A DNA stretch of 23,006 nucleotides, from assembly GCA_027604685.1 (NCBI GenBank), contig JADHYX010000260.1, positions 1 to 23,006 of the forward strand. Reading direction: 5' to 3'. A program made the translations under genes and the position numbers. Under the pieces are notes generated by a model. The model saw only the letters and a list, made by a program, of their open reading frames with translations, did no database searches and was not told the DNA's origin. The DNA is from Lobulomyces angularis (lineage: Eukaryota; Chytridiomycota; Chytridiomycetes; Lobulomycetales; Lobulomycetaceae). Of the stretch, positions 1,813 through 22,897 are shown in pieces; the first letter of the stretch is position 1; every line of letters begins with the position of its first letter.

Positions 1813-4800
1813 ATGAAAACTTTTTTATGTATATCAATAATTTATTGTTTACTGTGCAATGTAAGAGGGAAAAATTTTACAATCGCAGCAATTTTTAAAA
1901 ATTCCACAGGTAAATTAAATCTCAACTAAAAGTAATTTCTCTTTTTATATTAAGTTTTTCACAATTACATGTGGTGGACTTTAAAAGTTGCAGTGGATGA
2001 CTTAAATGCTAAAAACCTGATATCTGGGGTTCATTTTAACCTTTTAACTAAGCCAAACGAAGGGAAAATTAATGTTGCAGTTCAAAACGTAGTAGAGACC
2101 ATGACTCAAAAAAGCCTTGCCGATTCCCCTGTAGTTGGTTTTGTTGGTAGGTGTTTTTAATATTTTGTTTTAATTTCAAGTTAGGTGATTCAACTTCGGC
2201 ATTTTCAATTGCAATGTCCTTAACTTCAAATGCTTTTAAGGTTCTGCAGTGTTCAGGAACTGCAACTAGTCCAGAACTTTCTGTAAAAAGCACCCATCCC
2301 ACATTTTTTAGAACTGTTTCTCCAGGTAGTATTATGTGTGTAATACTGAAGTTAATTAAGATTCTATGTTAAAGACACATATCAAGCTCCTGCAATCGCT
2401 CATTATATAAAAAGTGTTGGTTGGAAAAAAGTTGCAGTATTTGCATCCAATAATGCATACGGCCTTTATTTAGGTCAAGAATTTCAATCTGTTTCCAGCA
2501 CACTAGGAATTAAAATTAAACTTTTTTATTCTTACGATCCTACAAAGTATTAAATTATATCTCATTTGATTAATTTTTGCAGTGCAAACTTTACTGATGC
2601 AGCACAGAAGATCTATGAATCAGGATCTAGGATAATTGTTATGTTCAGCAACTATCCTGATGCAACTTAGTAACTTATTACAATTCTGATGCAATTAAAT
2701 TTTATTAGCTTTTTACGAGAAACTGCAAAATTAGGGATGGTATCCTCCTCTTATGTTTATATTGGAAGTGATGGATTATACACAGATCCTCCAAAAAATA
2801 CTGTGACAAATACCACAGACTTATTAAATTTGGAGCGTATCATACTTATTTCTCCTCTTGGGATCTCAGCTTCAACAGTTTTTTACAGTCTTCAGGAGAA
2901 ATTTTTAAAACAATTTCCGTTATCAGGAGTTACAACAATTTCCAGCACTTTGTCTCTATTTTATGATTGCGTTTTAAGTATAGGAGAAGCGGTAAAAGAT
3001 TATTCAAATACAAATAGTATTGAGGACTTTAGTAGTGTCAACATGACGTCTCCTAAAATTTCGTTGGCAAATGTGAAAAAAGTAAATTTTCTAGGTGCAA
3101 CAGGAAATGTTAGCTTTGACAAAAATGGTGACCCAACTGCAGCTTTGTACAAAATTGCACAGTTTACCAGTAGCCAGAGTACCTCTCTACATGTCATTTG
3201 TATTATTGACGGAAAAACTGGTGCTAGAATGGAAAATGTGTCACAACCCAATTTTTTTGAAGATAGTACTAAAATCCCATCAGACAGCCCAGGTTTACAA
3301 AAAAAAGGAAATTTTTTTTAAATCCAACACTGTTTTTTATTACAAATACAAAATATTAATAATTAAAAAAATTTCTAGATATATTCGAGATCAACTTATC
3401 TTCCACCGGAAACTTAATTATTTTTATTTATTTCTGCCTTAGTCTTGCTATAAACTTGGTTTCTATCATTTACTTAATTATTAAAAAAAATGCCAAAGCC
3501 GTTAAAGCAACTTCGCTATTCTTTTTGTTCTGGATTTCGGTTGCTTACACAGTTTAATTGTTTTTTATTTACTTTCTTTTTTTCAGATTGGTCTAACCAT
3601 GATTTGGATTTCGATAGTATTTTTTATCAACACATACACAGACATTTCCTGTTTACTTCAGCAATGGGTTTTCTGGTAAAGTTTAAAATTAAATTTATTT
3701 CCACCAATATCCAATTTTTATTGTTAAAAAAGGATTGCCTTTGGTGTGGTTTTCAGCTCTTTACTCGTAAAAGTTTTTAGAGTTTACAAAATTTTTAGTA
3801 GTTTAAGGGTATTAACTCTTCAGACTAAACAATTATTTGGGTTTTCAAGCTTAATAGTACTTGGAGAAATTATTATCTTGGCTACTTTTACGATATTGGA
3901 TCCACCAAGGGCGGTTTTTGTGGAGCTGCCAAACATGACTTACTACACTTGCTATTCTCATAATCAAGTCCACTTTACTACAGTAATGATTGTGTACAAT
4001 GGTCTGCTACTTTTACTTGTCACTTTATTTGCTTATAAAACCAGAAATGTGTATGAAAATGTTCGTGAAACTTTTTGGATTTTTCAATTATCAAGTAACA
4101 TCACACTTTGTTGCAGTATTACAACTTTGCTGTTGTTTCTTTTGAATAACAATAATCCTGCTCTAATTTTTTACATTAGAATGACATCGATGGCATTTTT
4201 GGCAACAATAACTTATGGTACTAAAGCAAAAAAAAATTTTAATGAATTAATTTTTCTACTAAAAACCAACAATGAAAATTATCTTACATTAGTTTTTATT
4301 TATTACTCTTATATTAACGTTATAAAAAAAAACAGTTTGTTTAATAGGACGGATTGTATACTCCGTTTTATACATCCCTGATAAAGTCAATGAGGAAAAT
4401 TTGACAGGCTCAGCACTGATGGAGATTTTAGACATTGATTCAAGCCACCGTTCTGATTATGGTAGCTTAACGCAAGGAGCAAAAATGCCTTCGACTGCGT
4501 CACTGTTGATAAGCTTAAAAGATTCTAAGTCATTATTCGGGAAGTGGGAAAAATGTTATTTAACAATTTATAGCAAGCACTTGGTAATACTAATTTATGA
4601 GGTTAGTAATAATTTTTTTTTAAGGTTATTGGTAAATTTCATAGTAACCACTTAGTAAATACTGGTATAAGTATATTGTGCACAAAAGATATGAAAATTA
4701 AAGACATCGAGAAAATTACTTTCCAAATTATAAATTCTGACAGAGTTTTTACCATAGAATGTGAAGAAAACGCTAAAGATAAGATAATTGGAATAATTGG

Positions 4801-10612: not shown

Positions 10613-13826
<3,214 letters not shown>

Positions 13827-14055: not shown

Positions 14056-17000
14056 TCAGTATAATAATTCCTTCATAGCAGAAAAAGTCATTTCGAAAAA
14101 AGCTTCCCTAGTTTGTGGGTTATCGAAAATATCACTGGACTAAAAGATATGGATGTAGATTAGCAACGAATTTTCAAAAAAGCTATATATTTACAAATTG
14201 TAGTGTTTCCAGCTTTAAAAGAATTCCGTTAATCGACTTTGTTATATCAAGCTTAAACTTTTCGAGTTCCTGACTTTGCATATCAGTAGTAGTATTTTCT
14301 TTATTCGAATTGAAATAATAATGTAAGTGTCTCAACAATAATATGAGAACATTCTCTATTATGTCTGAAAAAATTAAAGTAGTTGGCATTTATAAAAATA
14401 AATTAGTGGCTTACAAACAGTTGATACAATTTCTTTTTTCTTACTCCTTATTTCAATTTGTAACTGGGTTTGTGCAAAGAGTCGTTTCTGCTGTTCATTC
14501 AGTTCATTACTAAAATTTTCACTAGAACGTAATCCAATCTGTTCAAAATTTAATAAGTTTTGAGTTATTTTACTATTGTTTACATCAGTAATATCATTCA
14601 CGTTTAAGTTGAACACCTCTTTTTTTCTGGATATTAAATCCTGCCTTTCCTCCAACTGCATAAACACAGTTTTTGTAACATTCTGTAAGTAAATAATTAA
14701 AGTTGAAACACTTGGTGAGGTCGACACATATAAAGCAGAATCGTATTCACCTCTATTATCTTTCAATACATTTAATGTGAAAACGGGGAAAAAAGGAGTT
14801 CCTTTTCAATTTGTAAGTAAATTTTCAGTTACAGTGTACAGCACATTACCTTCAGTAAGTCCTCTAAAATATGTTAATATATTTTTACAAATTTGGGTTG
14901 CCAGATCTAAAGCTTTCTTTTTAAAAATTGGGAAATTCTGAGCATTATCTGTAATATTTAGAAATTAAAAACTTATCACATGTAAATATATACCTCTAGA
15001 AGGTTTTAAATCTAATTTTTCGTCAAAAATTGAAATCCTTTTTAGTTTACTAATCCATTTTTCATTTGTGCAATATTTGTTGAAGAGCTCACTTAAAATT
15101 TGGTGAAAAATATTCCAAATTGATTCCTAATACATTGTTTAAAGAAAATACAATATTCAGTAGGGAAGTTAATTAAAAATATACCTCCACTAAATAAATC
15201 GATTTTGGCAAATAAGAAAAGAGGTAAGTAAAAAATTTCAATTCTTCCAAAGAATTTAAACTTATTGTTGAAATCCTATTCTTCAAAATAAGATTAATGG
15301 TTTCCTTGTGAGCAAGTATAAAATCGCAAATTTTTTTATTGATTGAAGTTTCGAAATTGACTGAAGGATAGTGAGATATAATACTACAAATAAGCTGAAG
15401 CGAAAGTAATATAATTTGAAAGTACAGTTCAGTTGACGGAGGGGTCAGTGAATAGATATCTATAAAAAATTTAATTATACAAAAAAAAAAAAAAAAAAAA
15501 AAAACCTCTTGAGGTATGTTCAAAATCCGGCCGAATATCAAAAAATTTACAATCCCTAAAAAATTCTATAATTTTGCAATCTAATAGTTTATCTGCACCA
15601 ACTTTGCTTAAACTCAGTTTTAGAAAAAATAAAGCCTTTGATTCGAAGACATAAAAGCTGTTCATATCGTTTACTTCGTCTAAATAATTACAGTTGGAAC
15701 GTATCATTTTAATATCTTACCAACGTTATCTCGCAGTACTTTTTGCAAGTTTACATCATCTAATTTTATCGTTTTCACGAAGTGGTCTAAATGATTTTTT
15801 TCTGATAAAAATATTAATAAACTATTTTTTCCAGTGGAACTTTTCTCAAAGTAAATGGAAAAAACGGCACTTAATAAAGAAAAAGCTACAGTTTTCCAAA
15901 CTTCTGGTCCGTCAGTAGCGTCCCTGCAGACGAGTTCAAAAAATCTGTATCCATAAATATTTGATTTAGAGACTACTAATAAAAGGAATTCTCACCTATC
16001 ACCAAACTTTTCAAAGACCGCAATATTTGAATTATTCTGTATACTATGATTTCCATTTGTGGAAGATGTAAGGTGAAGGTAGGAAATAATACTTGTGTAA
16101 TAATTTCCTCTGGTCTTACTGGTACTGCCTGTTCTAATGACACCTTCCAAAAAATGCTCTAAAACTAAAAGTTGGCCTTCAAGTGGTAACCTTAATAAAC
16201 CAGAAAAGTTTTCATTTGTTGAAGGAGCTTGTAAGATGTTTTGGATGAATTTGTCAGAGTTTAATTTTGAGATTAAGGTTAAGCTAGTACTGCTTAAAAT
16301 TTCAATAAATTCTGTTCTAGTGTTTGCATTATTTATTCGTGGTAAAATATTACTCAATATTTTATACATTAGTTCTTCTCTGCAAATAAAAAAATGCGAT
16401 TAGTAATGTTTAATATCCGATTATTGTATTAGAAGTAGAAATATATACAAACCTAGATTGCAATGGAAAGTAGTGATATCCTTCATTCAAAGCCACTAAT
16501 ACAATTTCATTCCATCCTATTAAACATTCTTTTTGAGCAAAATAATACTCTTTTGAGCTGTTCAGTCGTAAAATGTTATACAACAAATCTTTTAATTCAT
16601 TTTGAAATTCAACTTTTAGATGCACTGAAGATATAATGCCGTCAGCTTCTAATTGATATTCAATAGCACTTAAATACTTAAAAATTAATCGTATGTCAAA
16701 AACTTCACAACCCCGATCGTTCTTAACAACAAAGTGTTCAAATTGAATGTTTCTAAAAAATTTTAAACTTCCTAAATCTAAAGGGGAATCGGAAGATACA
16801 TCTTCTTTTAAATTCAGGCTATTGAAAATTTCTAAAATTTTAGTTAAAGGTTGATCGGAACCTTTTCTTTCATTACTTTCAAAATTTTCAAATAAAAAAG
16901 TATTGTTATTTAAAAACAGACAGTTAAACAGTTTTTCAATTTCCGAAGTTTTTCTCGATAAGATATTTGTATGCAGATCAATAGCTGCCAATTTCATTAA

Positions 17001-20000
17001 CCAAGCTTTTCGATGCAGGGCACTAATTTCATTTCGTTTCACTAAACTCAGGTTTTCATTCTCTTGTTCCAGAACCATCACCTCAATACCTTCTTGTTTA
17101 ATGTCATCAGAAATATGTGCTAGTTGCTTTAAAATAAAATCACCAGTTGATCTGAGATATCTCAACGTAGGTTCATATGTACTTTGAATAAATAAAGAAA
17201 TTAAAATTTTTAAAATAATGTCTATTATTTACGAAAGATTTAAGCAAAGCTTATAAAGTAGATGACAGCAACGTTCACTCAAGGTAGGATGTAACTTGTT
17301 AAAATTTAATGAATTATTACTTTTAGAATTTTCAGTATCAGCACTAACTAAATTAATGATATAATGCAGTAAATAAGCTTTATTCTTTTTTGAGTTTGGG
17401 TCATAAAAGTTGGTATTTTGCAAAAATTTAGTACAATCGAATCCAAGAAGAAAGTGAGCGAAAGTGGCGATTCCACTATTATTTGAAATTAGTAAATTTT
17501 CTAATAGTAAGTCCAAAATGGAAATCCTAACAGAATTTCCAATTCCTGATATTTCCAAATCGATTCCACCATGGTACTTCAAATTGGACAGTAAATCCGA
17601 ATCTGCAACTTCCATACTCTCTTTTACTTCTCCATTCATAAGTCTATTCACAAACCCGTTAATTACAACTTCATTTCCTTGAAATAACTTAACGATTCTG
17701 CTTTGTTTGCATTGCATAGAGTCAGTGTCAGATTTGAGAAAAACGTTAGAACAAGAAATAATTTTGAGAATCTTGGTAGCAAGAAGTACAATTTGGTCGT
17801 CAGAAGTGCAATTTAATAACTGTGCTAAAATAATTACAATGTCTTTGTGATAAGCAAGTAGCTGGTCCAAGCCAACCATTGAATTCGAAAAAATTGTAGA
17901 CTTTCCTCCTCCGAACGTTGTTATTTCAATCATCTTCGGAACTATTTTATCTAGAAACGTATCTTGGTACTTCAATATTCTAAATATAAGGGCTAGACAT
18001 TCCAAAATGGAATTTCCAAAGTAAAAATGTGATGATCCTTTTTGCAAATCAATTTGTTTTACCAATTTCAAAATATCAAATAAAATTTTGGTAAAGGTTG
18101 ACCCAGTTAAAACATTGCAAACGATTTTAAATCCTAAATATGTAAATATCATTATAATATGTTAATTAGTACCTGGAAATTTTGATAGACTATGAAATAA
18201 GTTTTCCTCCGTTTCACTAAAACTATGTAGTTGAGGAGATGAAGTTGAAATAAATTTCGCTCTTTCAAATTCAATTTTTAATACGGAATCAAAAAAATAT
18301 TCTACACAACTGTTAAAAATTTCCAAGCAAATGGAAGTCATTCTAAATTTTTCTTCTTCTTTTGCGTAAGATCTTTGGAATATTTTAAGAAACCCAAATT
18401 CAATAACAAAATCAATGAATGGATAAATCCCAGGAGTTCTTCTTGCTTCGCCCAAGTTCTCTACCGCAGAAGTTATATGTCGGAAATTGGAAGTGGAAAA
18501 TAGTGAATTGAGTAAACCCAAAAATGCAAGGGTTTCAGGAAATACTTGGCTAACAGTTTCAGTCTCTTCCAAATCAAAAACGATTCCATCCTATTAAGAG
18601 TTGTTAGGTCATGATTATTTTCGTTTTTTAATATTTATGTTATCTTCAAAATTACTAGCAAATTTTAGCGAAGTTTTTACCTTAGAAAAAATTCCATCCT
18701 TTTCACTCAAAACTTGAGATTCTTCTAACAAAAGCCAAACATTGGCAATGATATCACTATGACCTGGCAAATAATCAATACCAGGACATTGAGTGCAAAA
18801 GCCAGTGATGGCTTCAAATAAAGCTGCTTTGAGATTAGTAGGTATCCTACAGACGAGAAGCCGAAATAGTTCTTGAATTGCGACGGTGCTTTGATTTTCA
18901 AAAAGATAAAACCTTGCAACAGGGGAGTATGAAACAGTAGTCTTTAATAAATTTAAGAAACCAATCATGACTTCAATATCTTGTGGATTAATATCTAAAT
19001 TTGGATTTTCGTAGATAGTAGAAGAAAAGTGCTGGAGCGCTGCAAACATTTGCTGCCAAGAAATCGCTGAAATTGACAAAGTTTGTTGGGAATTAAATAA
19101 CTCGAATGCATGATGGGAGCTTTTGGGGCCAGTAGCCAAAGAAGCCATCATCCGAAAATATGTACTTTTCAATTCCAGGGATTTAACATCTGATGCCCAC
19201 TTTAAAAATTTCAGCAACTCATTACTTGTCCAAAATTGTAAAGCTAGTAAAATTACAGTTTTGTATTAATATAAACACATTCTTATAATCCTACCAGCAT
19301 CGGGCCTATCATGATATAGTACTGATATTAAGGTAAGCAAAGTTTGAAATGTTTTCGTCGGTGGTACAATTTTGTTATTCAAATATTGCCTTTGCCTTTC
19401 GTAATATCCCTTTTTTACTACATCTTCATCACTCTTTTTTGTATTTCTAACAGATCTACCAAAGTTCTGAATAAAATGTGAAATCAACAGCTCCAAAGTA
19501 GAGTAAATTTCGCATCTAAAGTCCACCCGTACGTCCTTCCATATGTTTATTAAGTCACTGGTATTCTATAAAAATAATTTTTTTTAGTTGAGGCAAGTTA
19601 ATAAAAAATGAATCTGACAAAAGAGTATTCATTAATTTACAAACTTACGTTTGAAGAAACCATCAAAACAAAATAGTTAAATATATTATGATCAAATATT
19701 AACTTCTCAAGTTGCTTTTCCAAATAATCCGAATCAGAATTGAAAGAAAATGGGTCCATATACTCAAATCTTTGTCTATGTTTGAAGAAGATAATAAACT
19801 GAAATTGCAATACTGCCTTAAGATTTGTATCAGAAAAATTTTCGCTGTTAGTGAATAGTTCATTGTTCAGCATTTTTAAACTATCTTTTGTTAATTTGAA
19901 AAGGTGCATTTGAGTTTGTTGAATATTTTGATTTAAAACATCGATTGAAATGAATTTTAACAATGTCAACAACAAATAGGGTGAAATTATATCTGATGAG

Positions 20001-21186: not shown

Positions 21187-22897
21187 CTATTTAAAGACTT
21201 TGCCATCTGCAAATTTCTTTCCATCAATAACCTCATCCCAAGCCATATAACAGTTGAAATCTTCTTGAACTTTCTTATCAGAGGTGTCAACTTTGGTAAA
21301 GTTAAAGCTTTCGAAATCTGGAGAGTCAGAAACTTCGGCAGGAATACCATCCCCTCTGAAAACAAAGTAACCAGCGATTTCATTGGCATTGTCTTTTCCC
21401 AAAACACATAATGAGCCGAAAGCACTATCAATAGGTTAAAACAAAAAGGTTATCAGTAAACTTACTATTTACGAGCACCTTCGATACGTCTGTAAAACCC
21501 ACCAATTAAGTTGGAGGACATGAAAGTTTTTTCTAATTCTCTATTGTACTTGTAGGTCAACTTGTAAACCGAAAAACCTTTAGGATCATAACTAAAAAAT
21601 AAATATTAAGCAATAGTAATACGCAACATTACTTTGCCCAAAACCAATCAACAGCAGTAGGACGAGTGTCATTGTTTGAATACATCCTTTTCCAAGCATC
21701 CAAAACAAAGGTGGATGGCGGTAAAAGGTCTAATGGATTTTTTCCTTTTGGTTTCTCATCTGCATAAGATTCTTCTTCCTCTTCATCAGCTTCTTTCTTA
21801 GGTTTCTCTTTCTTTGCAGAAGGAGCTTTTTCTTTCTTTTCAGCTTTTGCGGTTTTTGGGGATGCAGGTGTAGAAGCAGGTTTTTCTTCTAGATAATAAT
21901 AAATAGAAACTTAGAACACTTAAAATTTTTTTTTTTTTTACCAGCCGGTTTTGCGACTTTCATAGCAGTAGCAAGAGCAACTTCACCATACACAGTTTTA
22001 AAGTGTGGTTGATTAACACAAGTTAAAAACCATCTAGTAACGTTTTTAAAAGATGCACGGAATTCAGGAGAAAAAACGGTTTTGTAGAATCCAACCAAAG
22101 CGGAAACTAAAGAAATATCGGCTAAAGTAACAGTTTCACCAACAAAAAATGTATGGTGCAACAAATGAGCATCTAAAACTGAGAGAACTTTTTTTGCGTC
22201 GGCTTTTGCCTTTTCAGTAGATTTATGATCGAAGGGGTAATAGCCAAATATTGGATATAACCAGGCAGCAGCAATAGGAGAAAATTCATTGTCTGCCAAA
22301 GCAATCCATTGATGAATCAAAGCAGCTTCCTTCTTATTTTTACCAAGAAGTTGAGTAGAATCCTTGTGAGTAGCAGCTAATTGAAAGATCAAATGGTTAG
22401 CTCAGAAAAAAAAATTTATTCATAAAATAAGTGGGGAAATAATTGACTCAGTATTAAATTTTTATTTCAGCATTGTGTTCTAAGACAGGGATAACTGTTA
22501 AAAATTCGTTTCATCACGGCAACATAAAGCACTCAGAAAAATGCACAAAAATAATTACCATAGTACGTTATAGCACTGCTTTCAAAGAGAGTAAAACCAT
22601 CAGCACCTTCAAAAGCTGGTACTTTTCCGAGTGGAAATTTTTTCAAAAACTCAGGAGTTTTGTTGGAAACACCCATTTCAACTAAAAAAAAAGTTTAACC
22701 CAAATTGTGAAAGTAAAATCTCTAACCAGGAACTACATCGATTTCTTCGCCATTGTATTTAGCAGCAATTAGAGCTTTTGCAACTCTAAAAAATTTAAAA
22801 AGATTAAAAATTATACTTCATAAAAAACCAAAGAAAATATTGTTTAAGGTTACCTAGGGTTGTTAGGATAAGAGTGAATTTTACCGAGAGAAACCAT
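21187..22897 (-). CDS. Translation elongation factor eEF1B gamma subunit
   Basis: Gamma subunit of the eEF1B complex, the nucleotide exchange factor for eEF1A; it scaffolds the catalytic alpha subunit in the cytosol. Protein 426 aa (human 437). Exons (5'->3'): 22897-22854, 22785-22727, 22681-22559, 22376-21942, 21888-21633, 21591-21466, 21424-21187. Residues about 1-205 form a GST-like fold: [36 protein letters not shown] in the thioredoxin-like part, then helices with [12 protein letters not shown] lysine/alanine/glutamate-rich linker lies at about 220-265. The conserved EF1G domain follows: [52 protein letters not shown] and [14 protein letters not shown], ending in VFK. The GST-like half is catalytically inactive or of unclear activity in the family. 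The third intron, 182 nt against about 40-70 for its neighbours, hosts a C/D snoRNA, so splicing of this highly expressed gene would also supply the snoRNA. Confidence 0.97.
22442..22523 (-). ncRNA. snR38: Intronic C/D box snoRNA, snR38-like
   Basis: Predicted guide for 2'-O-methylation of large-subunit rRNA, inside the third eEF1B-gamma intron (22377-22558). On the minus strand the order is C box GTGATGA (22517-22511), guide CAGTTATCCCTGT (22497-22485), D' box CTTA (22484-22481), C' box ATGCTGA (22473-22467) and D box CTGA (22451-22448). The flanks GTTGCC and GTCAAT can form an imperfect terminal stem. The 13-nt guide is exactly complementary to ACAGGGATAACTG, a universal eukaryotic 25S/28S segment beside the peptidyl transferase centre. 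The D'-plus-five rule selects the middle G of GGG, which I map to yeast G2815, the known snR38 target. Yeast snR38 lies in an intron of TEF4, also an eEF1B-gamma gene. Total about 82 nt. Least certain are the degenerate D' box and the exact ends. Confidence 0.9.

Follow-up and report, generated by a model that had tools for sequence, protein, structure and literature searches.

Introduction

Box C/D snoRNAs of the snR38 family are listed for plant, human, and yeast (PMC3511168), and the rRNA methylations paired with them in PMC8817022 include Gm2815 in yeast (snR38), Gm4362 in human (snR38A-C), Gm2805 in Arabidopsis (AtsnoR38Y), and Gm3148 in Dictyostelium (CD6). In yeast, snR38 sits in the intron of the eEF1Bγ gene TEF4 (PMC3454408, PMC2705663). 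Two other fungal members are intronic, as is the snoRNA described here: Neurospora crassa CD23, which guides 26S Gm2773 from its D' side (PMC2780460), and Fusarium graminearum SnR38, the level of which falls in the absence of the debranching enzyme Dbr1 (PMC9606315); the passages on these two snoRNAs do not name the host genes. In Plasmodium, the snoRNA PFS7, listed as a homolog of snR38 / yeast Gm2815, lies in an intron of an Enp1 homolog, and the Arabidopsis counterpart carries the mark (C), taken to mean clustered, in the same source (PMC2656528). Among introns that carry other snoRNAs, those of RPL7 (snR39-snR59) and NOG2 (snR191) are kept in place in 82% and 72% of fungal species, respectively, according to PMC8476143.

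Here, we analyzed a window of 23,006 nucleotides from Lobulomyces angularis (the whole stretch of DNA under study; contig JADHYX010000260.1), in which an snR38-like snoRNA had been predicted within an intron of an eEF1Bγ gene, and compared this locus with the systems above.

Results

The minus strand of the window contains an eEF1Bγ coding region (21187..22897, ATG to TAG) of 426 amino acids with seven exons and six introns, as defined by the gene model, protein match, and Pfam domains. The encoded protein contains an EF1G domain (PF00647, 149.6 bits) together with GST_N and GST_C, and its best protein match is elongation factor 1-gamma of the chytrid Clydaea vesicula (Lobulomycetales; P0001), in which 348/348 residues of the entry are identical. 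The original prediction had named an eEF1Bγ host, as in yeast TEF4, and a fungal lineage, and both were confirmed by these matches. The P0001 entry is without the first 36 residues and without a 42-residue stretch, both of which are encoded by the window DNA (78 residues more in the gene model).

The six introns measure 68, 45, 182, 53, 41, and 41 nt, and the snoRNA lies in the longest of them, the other five being 41–68 nt. The original prediction called it the longest intron of the window; the lengths compared here are those of the six introns of the eEF1Bγ gene. This host intron, the third (22377..22558, minus strand, GT..AG), is in phase 1 and splits codon 76 (G/CT), as supported by the gene model, the public protein, and homologs. 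A CTAAC motif (22396..22400, minus strand), which probably serves as the branch site, ends 19 nt before the 3' end of the intron. Another possible 3' end, at 22401, was ruled out by P0001 and the homologs, which set the boundary at 22377. The AG that ends at 22401 lies 24 nt from the 22377 site and in the same frame, such that its use would lengthen the protein by eight residues; alternative splicing at this AG, beside the snoRNA, is possible.

Two further loci were recognized elsewhere in the window. On the plus strand, ORFs at 2674-4381 match ANF_receptor (PF01094, 2674-3321) and then 7tm_3 (PF00003, 3728-4381), and they probably mark a chytrid gene for a class C G-protein-coupled receptor. 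On the minus strand, ORFs at 16410-19265 match Nup192 (PF11894, nuclear pore scaffold) in two scanned segments.

When the whole window was searched with cmscan against all 4227 families, the host intron gave a match to RF00213 (snR38/snoR38, box C/D snoRNA; 22441..22524, minus strand) with 41.9 bits and an E-value of 5.9e-4, and the alignment covers the full model (1-91 of 91). This score is 3 bits short of the Rfam gathering cut-off of 45 bits, which is a curator's threshold and no biological feature, and the snoRNA is still assigned to RF00213. Its membership in the snR38 family is near certain from the sequence. Besides the window locus, no RF00213 match with E up to 0.001 was reported across the 20,758,374-base assembly (533 contigs), for which 62 of 8510 candidates were scored.

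The predicted C-guide-D'-C'-D layout is present on the minus strand, and all boxes were located using the sequence and the RF00213 alignment. The C box GUGAUGA (22511..22517) fits RUGAUGA and is followed by the 13-nt guide ACAGUUAUCCCUG (22486..22498), antisense to ACAGGGATAACTG of the LSU rRNA, by the D' box CUUA (22481..22484), the C' box UGCUGAA (22466..22472), and the D box CUGA (22448..22451). Two details of the original prediction required correction. The D' box does not directly adjoin the guide but is separated from it by one U (22485), and its letters, CUUA, are off the consensus CUGA with which they align in RF00213. Degenerate internal boxes (D', C') are frequent in C/D snoRNAs. The GC content of the window is 30%, and the C and D boxes are intact in such AT-rich DNA. 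The terminal stem consists of a C-G pair beside the boxes, a C·U mismatch, and then four pairs including one G·U. This expected stem is absent from the minimum-energy fold, where the C-box letters pair with the 3' end instead; the fold, which says little for C/D snoRNAs, has a z-score of 0.50, with 142 of 200 shuffles at least as stable.

The guide pairs over 13/13 nt with an rRNA stretch on contig C297 of the same assembly (target motif ACAGGGAUAACUG of the LSU rRNA, in the context TTACCACAGGGATAACTGGC), and the duplex with this rRNA has an energy of -22.4 kcal/mol. The claimed exact match of the guide to LSU rRNA holds against the assembly's own rRNA sequence. The C297 stretch that contains the 13-mer matches the eukaryotic large-subunit rRNA model with 476.5 bits, over positions 2389-3399 of 3401. 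This region (C297:19986-22998; L003 1006-1797) is a partial large-subunit rRNA stretch that gives way to AT-rich DNA at its upstream end, and it may represent an rDNA fragment or a pseudogene copy, with the main rDNA perhaps unassembled. With CUUA taken as the D' box, the D'+5 rule points to the second G in CAGGGAU, the fifth letter of ACAGGGATAACTG. By alignment with the yeast 25S and E. coli sequences, we take this base to be yeast 25S G2815 and E. coli 2446, five nt before A2451. The G2815 equivalent named in the original prediction is the base that the D'+5 rule selects, with the numbering following PMC8817022 and this alignment. The window snoRNA is likely to be active in the predicted methylation of this base.

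The chance expectation of such a match was assessed at several levels. Within the 20.76-Mb assembly, the exact 13-mer turned up at two places, opposite the snoRNA guide and in the large-subunit rRNA stretch on C297. A first-order Markov model of the window's sequence predicts ~1e-6 occurrences of the sense guide per intron of host-intron length. A loose scan for C...D with a 4-bp stem returned one candidate in the window, whereas 50 simulated windows held 0.16 candidates on average and at most 2. Taken by themselves, the boxes therefore count for little, and the significance lies with the guide. An 18-base snR38 pattern searched in public contigs gave no match in viral_contigs and two in genome_contigs, both in bacterial bins according to the record titles. 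When the 8 kb surrounding each of these two matches (L004, L005) was searched with Rfam, nothing reached gathering scores, and both are taken as chance.

The cmscan search of the window also returned a match to SNORD65 (12293-12361, plus strand, E 1.1), which was rejected as a false positive that overlaps a reading frame with an 11-residue motif. We take this motif to be that of an ABC ATPase (ABC ATPase / ABC-F), and the ORFs downstream of the SNORD65-like stretch match PF00005. An overlap of this type is the kind of false positive to be expected in snoRNA scans.

To compare the intron positions, we used the primers for deletion of the yeast TEF4 intron, TEF4E1r and TEF4E2d (Table 3 of PMC2705663). 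The complement of TEF4E1r ends in codons for AIQFY, the last codon being Y68, and TEF4E2d starts GTGGCTAAT / GTGGCTAATCAAGTT. The S. cerevisiae TEF4 protein (P0121) reads AIQFYLANQV, with Leu69 after AIQFY. Since no Leu codon has G in first place, we read the initial G of TEF4E2d as the final base of the intron, with exon 2 opening with TG. The yeast snR38 intron is best read as phase 1 in codon 69, right after AIQFY, on the basis of the primers and P0121 and not of yeast genomic sequence. In the window gene, the phase 1 intron in codon 76 directly follows AITYY. Relative to the upstream exon, the yeast (primer-based) and chytrid introns therefore occupy an identical site, the codon after AIx[FY]Y, in the same phase. 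Downstream of the intron, TEF4 has four residues more than the chytrid protein before the conserved LLG, and this longer loop leaves the upstream exon as the sole anchor for equating the two sites. The two systems share the snoRNA family, the D' guide, the target base (25S G2815), the eEF1Bγ host, the intron codon, and its phase. They differ in that the chytrid gene has six introns with snR38 in the third, in the D' box CUUA of the chytrid snoRNA, and in intron size (182 nt; ~327 nt in yeast TEF4, worked out from the primer coordinates 106 and 677 of PMC3454408 and P0121).

Unspliced reading frames of homologs retain a trace of this intron. Two protein searches (a chytrid set and a yeast set) were limited to the best 120 matches each, giving 240 listed proteins, and an ORF was considered N-terminally truncated if homology begins after query residue 40. 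Thirty-four of the 240 listed eEF1Bγ ORFs are truncated, among which 17 start after the junction, 15 either start at the split codon or extend to it with differing residues, and two (P0042, P0069) read through the junction. Alignments were made for 23 of the 34; the 11 left out comprise nine that start after the junction and the two read-through cases. In the yeast set, all 11 truncated ORFs that reach the split codon have V (9) or M (2) at this position (assigned by eye, counting back from the DEK region), and the same codon in 102 untruncated yeast-set proteins, located by a motif pattern, encodes L in 86, F in 9, I in 4, V in 2, C in 1, and M in none. Because an unspliced AG/TN phase 1 junction puts an intronic G before two exon bases, V or M at the split codon is the trace expected of the intron; the M in two ORFs is read as from a GTG start. 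In the chytrid set, four truncated ORFs have V at the split codon, but V is also the usual residue there (71 of 98 matched untruncated proteins, with 6 unmatched), and only the upstream break counts in this set.

The truncated ORFs are not all independent, since P0193 and P0203 are near-identical. For P0198, and likewise for P0065 and P0095 of the chytrid set, the BLAST alignment continues past the split codon by a few residues on the upstream side. P0219 is a predicted gene of Saccharomycodes ludwigii. The read-through in P0042 and P0069 indicates either that the intron is not present everywhere or that these are spliced sequences. Taken as sequences, the truncated ORFs point to an intron at this codon, not to a snoRNA within it. 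When the listed proteins were searched for snR38 peptides read through in unspliced ORFs, the motif matched three times, each time outside any intron-derived part.

In yeast, the eEF1B exchange-factor gene hosts snR18 and RPL7 hosts snR39/59. Neither the assembly locus with the eEF1B exchange-factor domain (L006) nor that with the RPL7 N-terminal domain (L008) matched an Rfam family at E up to 1, and a simple scan of the two loci yielded no C/D candidate, in both cases at a sensitivity too low to indicate absence. The NOG2 domain (PF08153) was not found in the assembly, again at a sensitivity too low to indicate absence. Genome-wide searches of the assembly with RF01159 and RF00069 gave no match, and neither did those of the control genomes, which leaves this negative result without weight. 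RF01159 is the plant U18 family, and yeast U18 is RF00093 (table in PMC3511168).

Discussion

Our comparison suggests that the third intron of the window eEF1Bγ gene very likely encodes a chytrid ortholog of snR38 and shares intron, snoRNA, and host with yeast by common descent. This is the best explanation, since convergence would have had to arrive at both an identical host gene and an identical intron position. We infer the following course of expression, processing, methylation, and descent. The eEF1Bγ pre-mRNA would be transcribed at a high rate, as is usual for the gene of a translation factor, its host intron would be spliced and debranched, and exonucleases would trim the intron to the protein-bound C/D core of about 80 nt. 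The resulting snoRNP would pair its D' guide with 25S rRNA and direct fibrillarin to 2'-O methylation of the G2815 equivalent, five nt before the A2451 equivalent of the peptidyl-transferase center. Intron, snoRNA, and host would have been inherited jointly from the common ancestor of chytrids and ascomycetes.

The original prediction regarded the pairing of guide, target, and host as ancient, and the shared position (from the upstream exon) and phase of the yeast and chytrid introns support this. The pairing appears to be old within Fungi but is not universal, given the different host in Plasmodium (PMC2656528). Like the window snoRNA, PFS7 is intronic and antisense to the same LSU site, whereas its host is an Enp1 homolog and, in our reading of the sequence printed in that paper, its rRNA match stands before the D box and not before D'.

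Convergence, in which snR38 moved independently into an eEF1Bγ intron in the chytrid and yeast lineages, would be in line with the mobility of snoRNAs within genomes (PMC3511168, PMC8476143) and with the other host of the same-site snoRNA in Plasmodium (PMC2656528). However, it requires the same host among thousands of genes in addition to the same intron, and with six introns and ~1278 coding positions, a given site would be hit with a probability of ~0.5%, before the choice of snoRNA; we therefore regard convergence as unlikely. The off-consensus D' box, the score below the cut-off, and the imperfect terminal stem could instead mark a decayed or silent snR38 copy, with the working copy elsewhere or missing from the assembly. 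This is distinctly improbable for a locus with a letter-perfect 13-nt guide and with C and D boxes that are intact in AT-rich DNA, and a second RF00213 match was not reported in the assembly (62 of 8510 candidates scored).

A main role in cis, with the intronic element chiefly regulating splicing or stability of the eEF1Bγ mRNA, has parallels in other systems where intronic snoRNAs affect host splicing (PMC10324135, PMC11028025), and the in-frame AG ending at 22401, with its 8 additional residues, would fit such a role. Regulation in cis has no need for a perfect rRNA guide and box layout, and the Clydaea annotation uses the downstream AG, which makes this explanation very improbable. Even though the scan that found the snoRNA also yielded the weak SNORD65 artefact (E 1.1), a chance resemblance to snR38 is scarcely credible at an E-value of 5.9e-4 and for a family that appears in just the host and intron where it would be expected.

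Common descent of the snR38 intron also bears on why the intron has been kept. The snoRNA probably locks the eEF1Bγ intron, such that the snR38 intron was kept continuously since the chytrid-Dikarya ancestor and would be a third ancient lock beside RPL7 and NOG2. The RPL7 and NOG2 introns are likewise snoRNA-bearing and conserved in position, with other snoRNAs and hosts (PMC8476143).

As judged from the top-ranked papers and passages, we found no report of snR38 in a chytrid eEF1Bγ gene in the literature. The fungal snoRNA study by Canzler and colleagues (2018) may already contain this snoRNA, and we claim no priority for it. Alignments from that study were used in PMC8476143, the main text of which has no occurrence of the terms snR38, TEF4, or EF1. 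With this locus, an arrangement known from yeast is extended to the opposite side of the fungal tree, with two comparable conserved snoRNA-bearing introns already on record.

SnoRNAs often change hosts, and an intron, its snoRNA, and its host held together across one of the deepest fungal splits make a case for functional RNAs preserving introns. The snR38/eEF1Bγ intron provides a clean marker for intron homology that is easily testable in any fungal genome. It also yields a prediction of one specific rRNA methylation in a chytrid lineage whose rRNA modifications have, to our knowledge, not been mapped. If the snoRNA does lock this intron, a translation factor and a guide for methylation of the peptidyl-transferase center would have been carried on one transcript throughout crown-fungal history.
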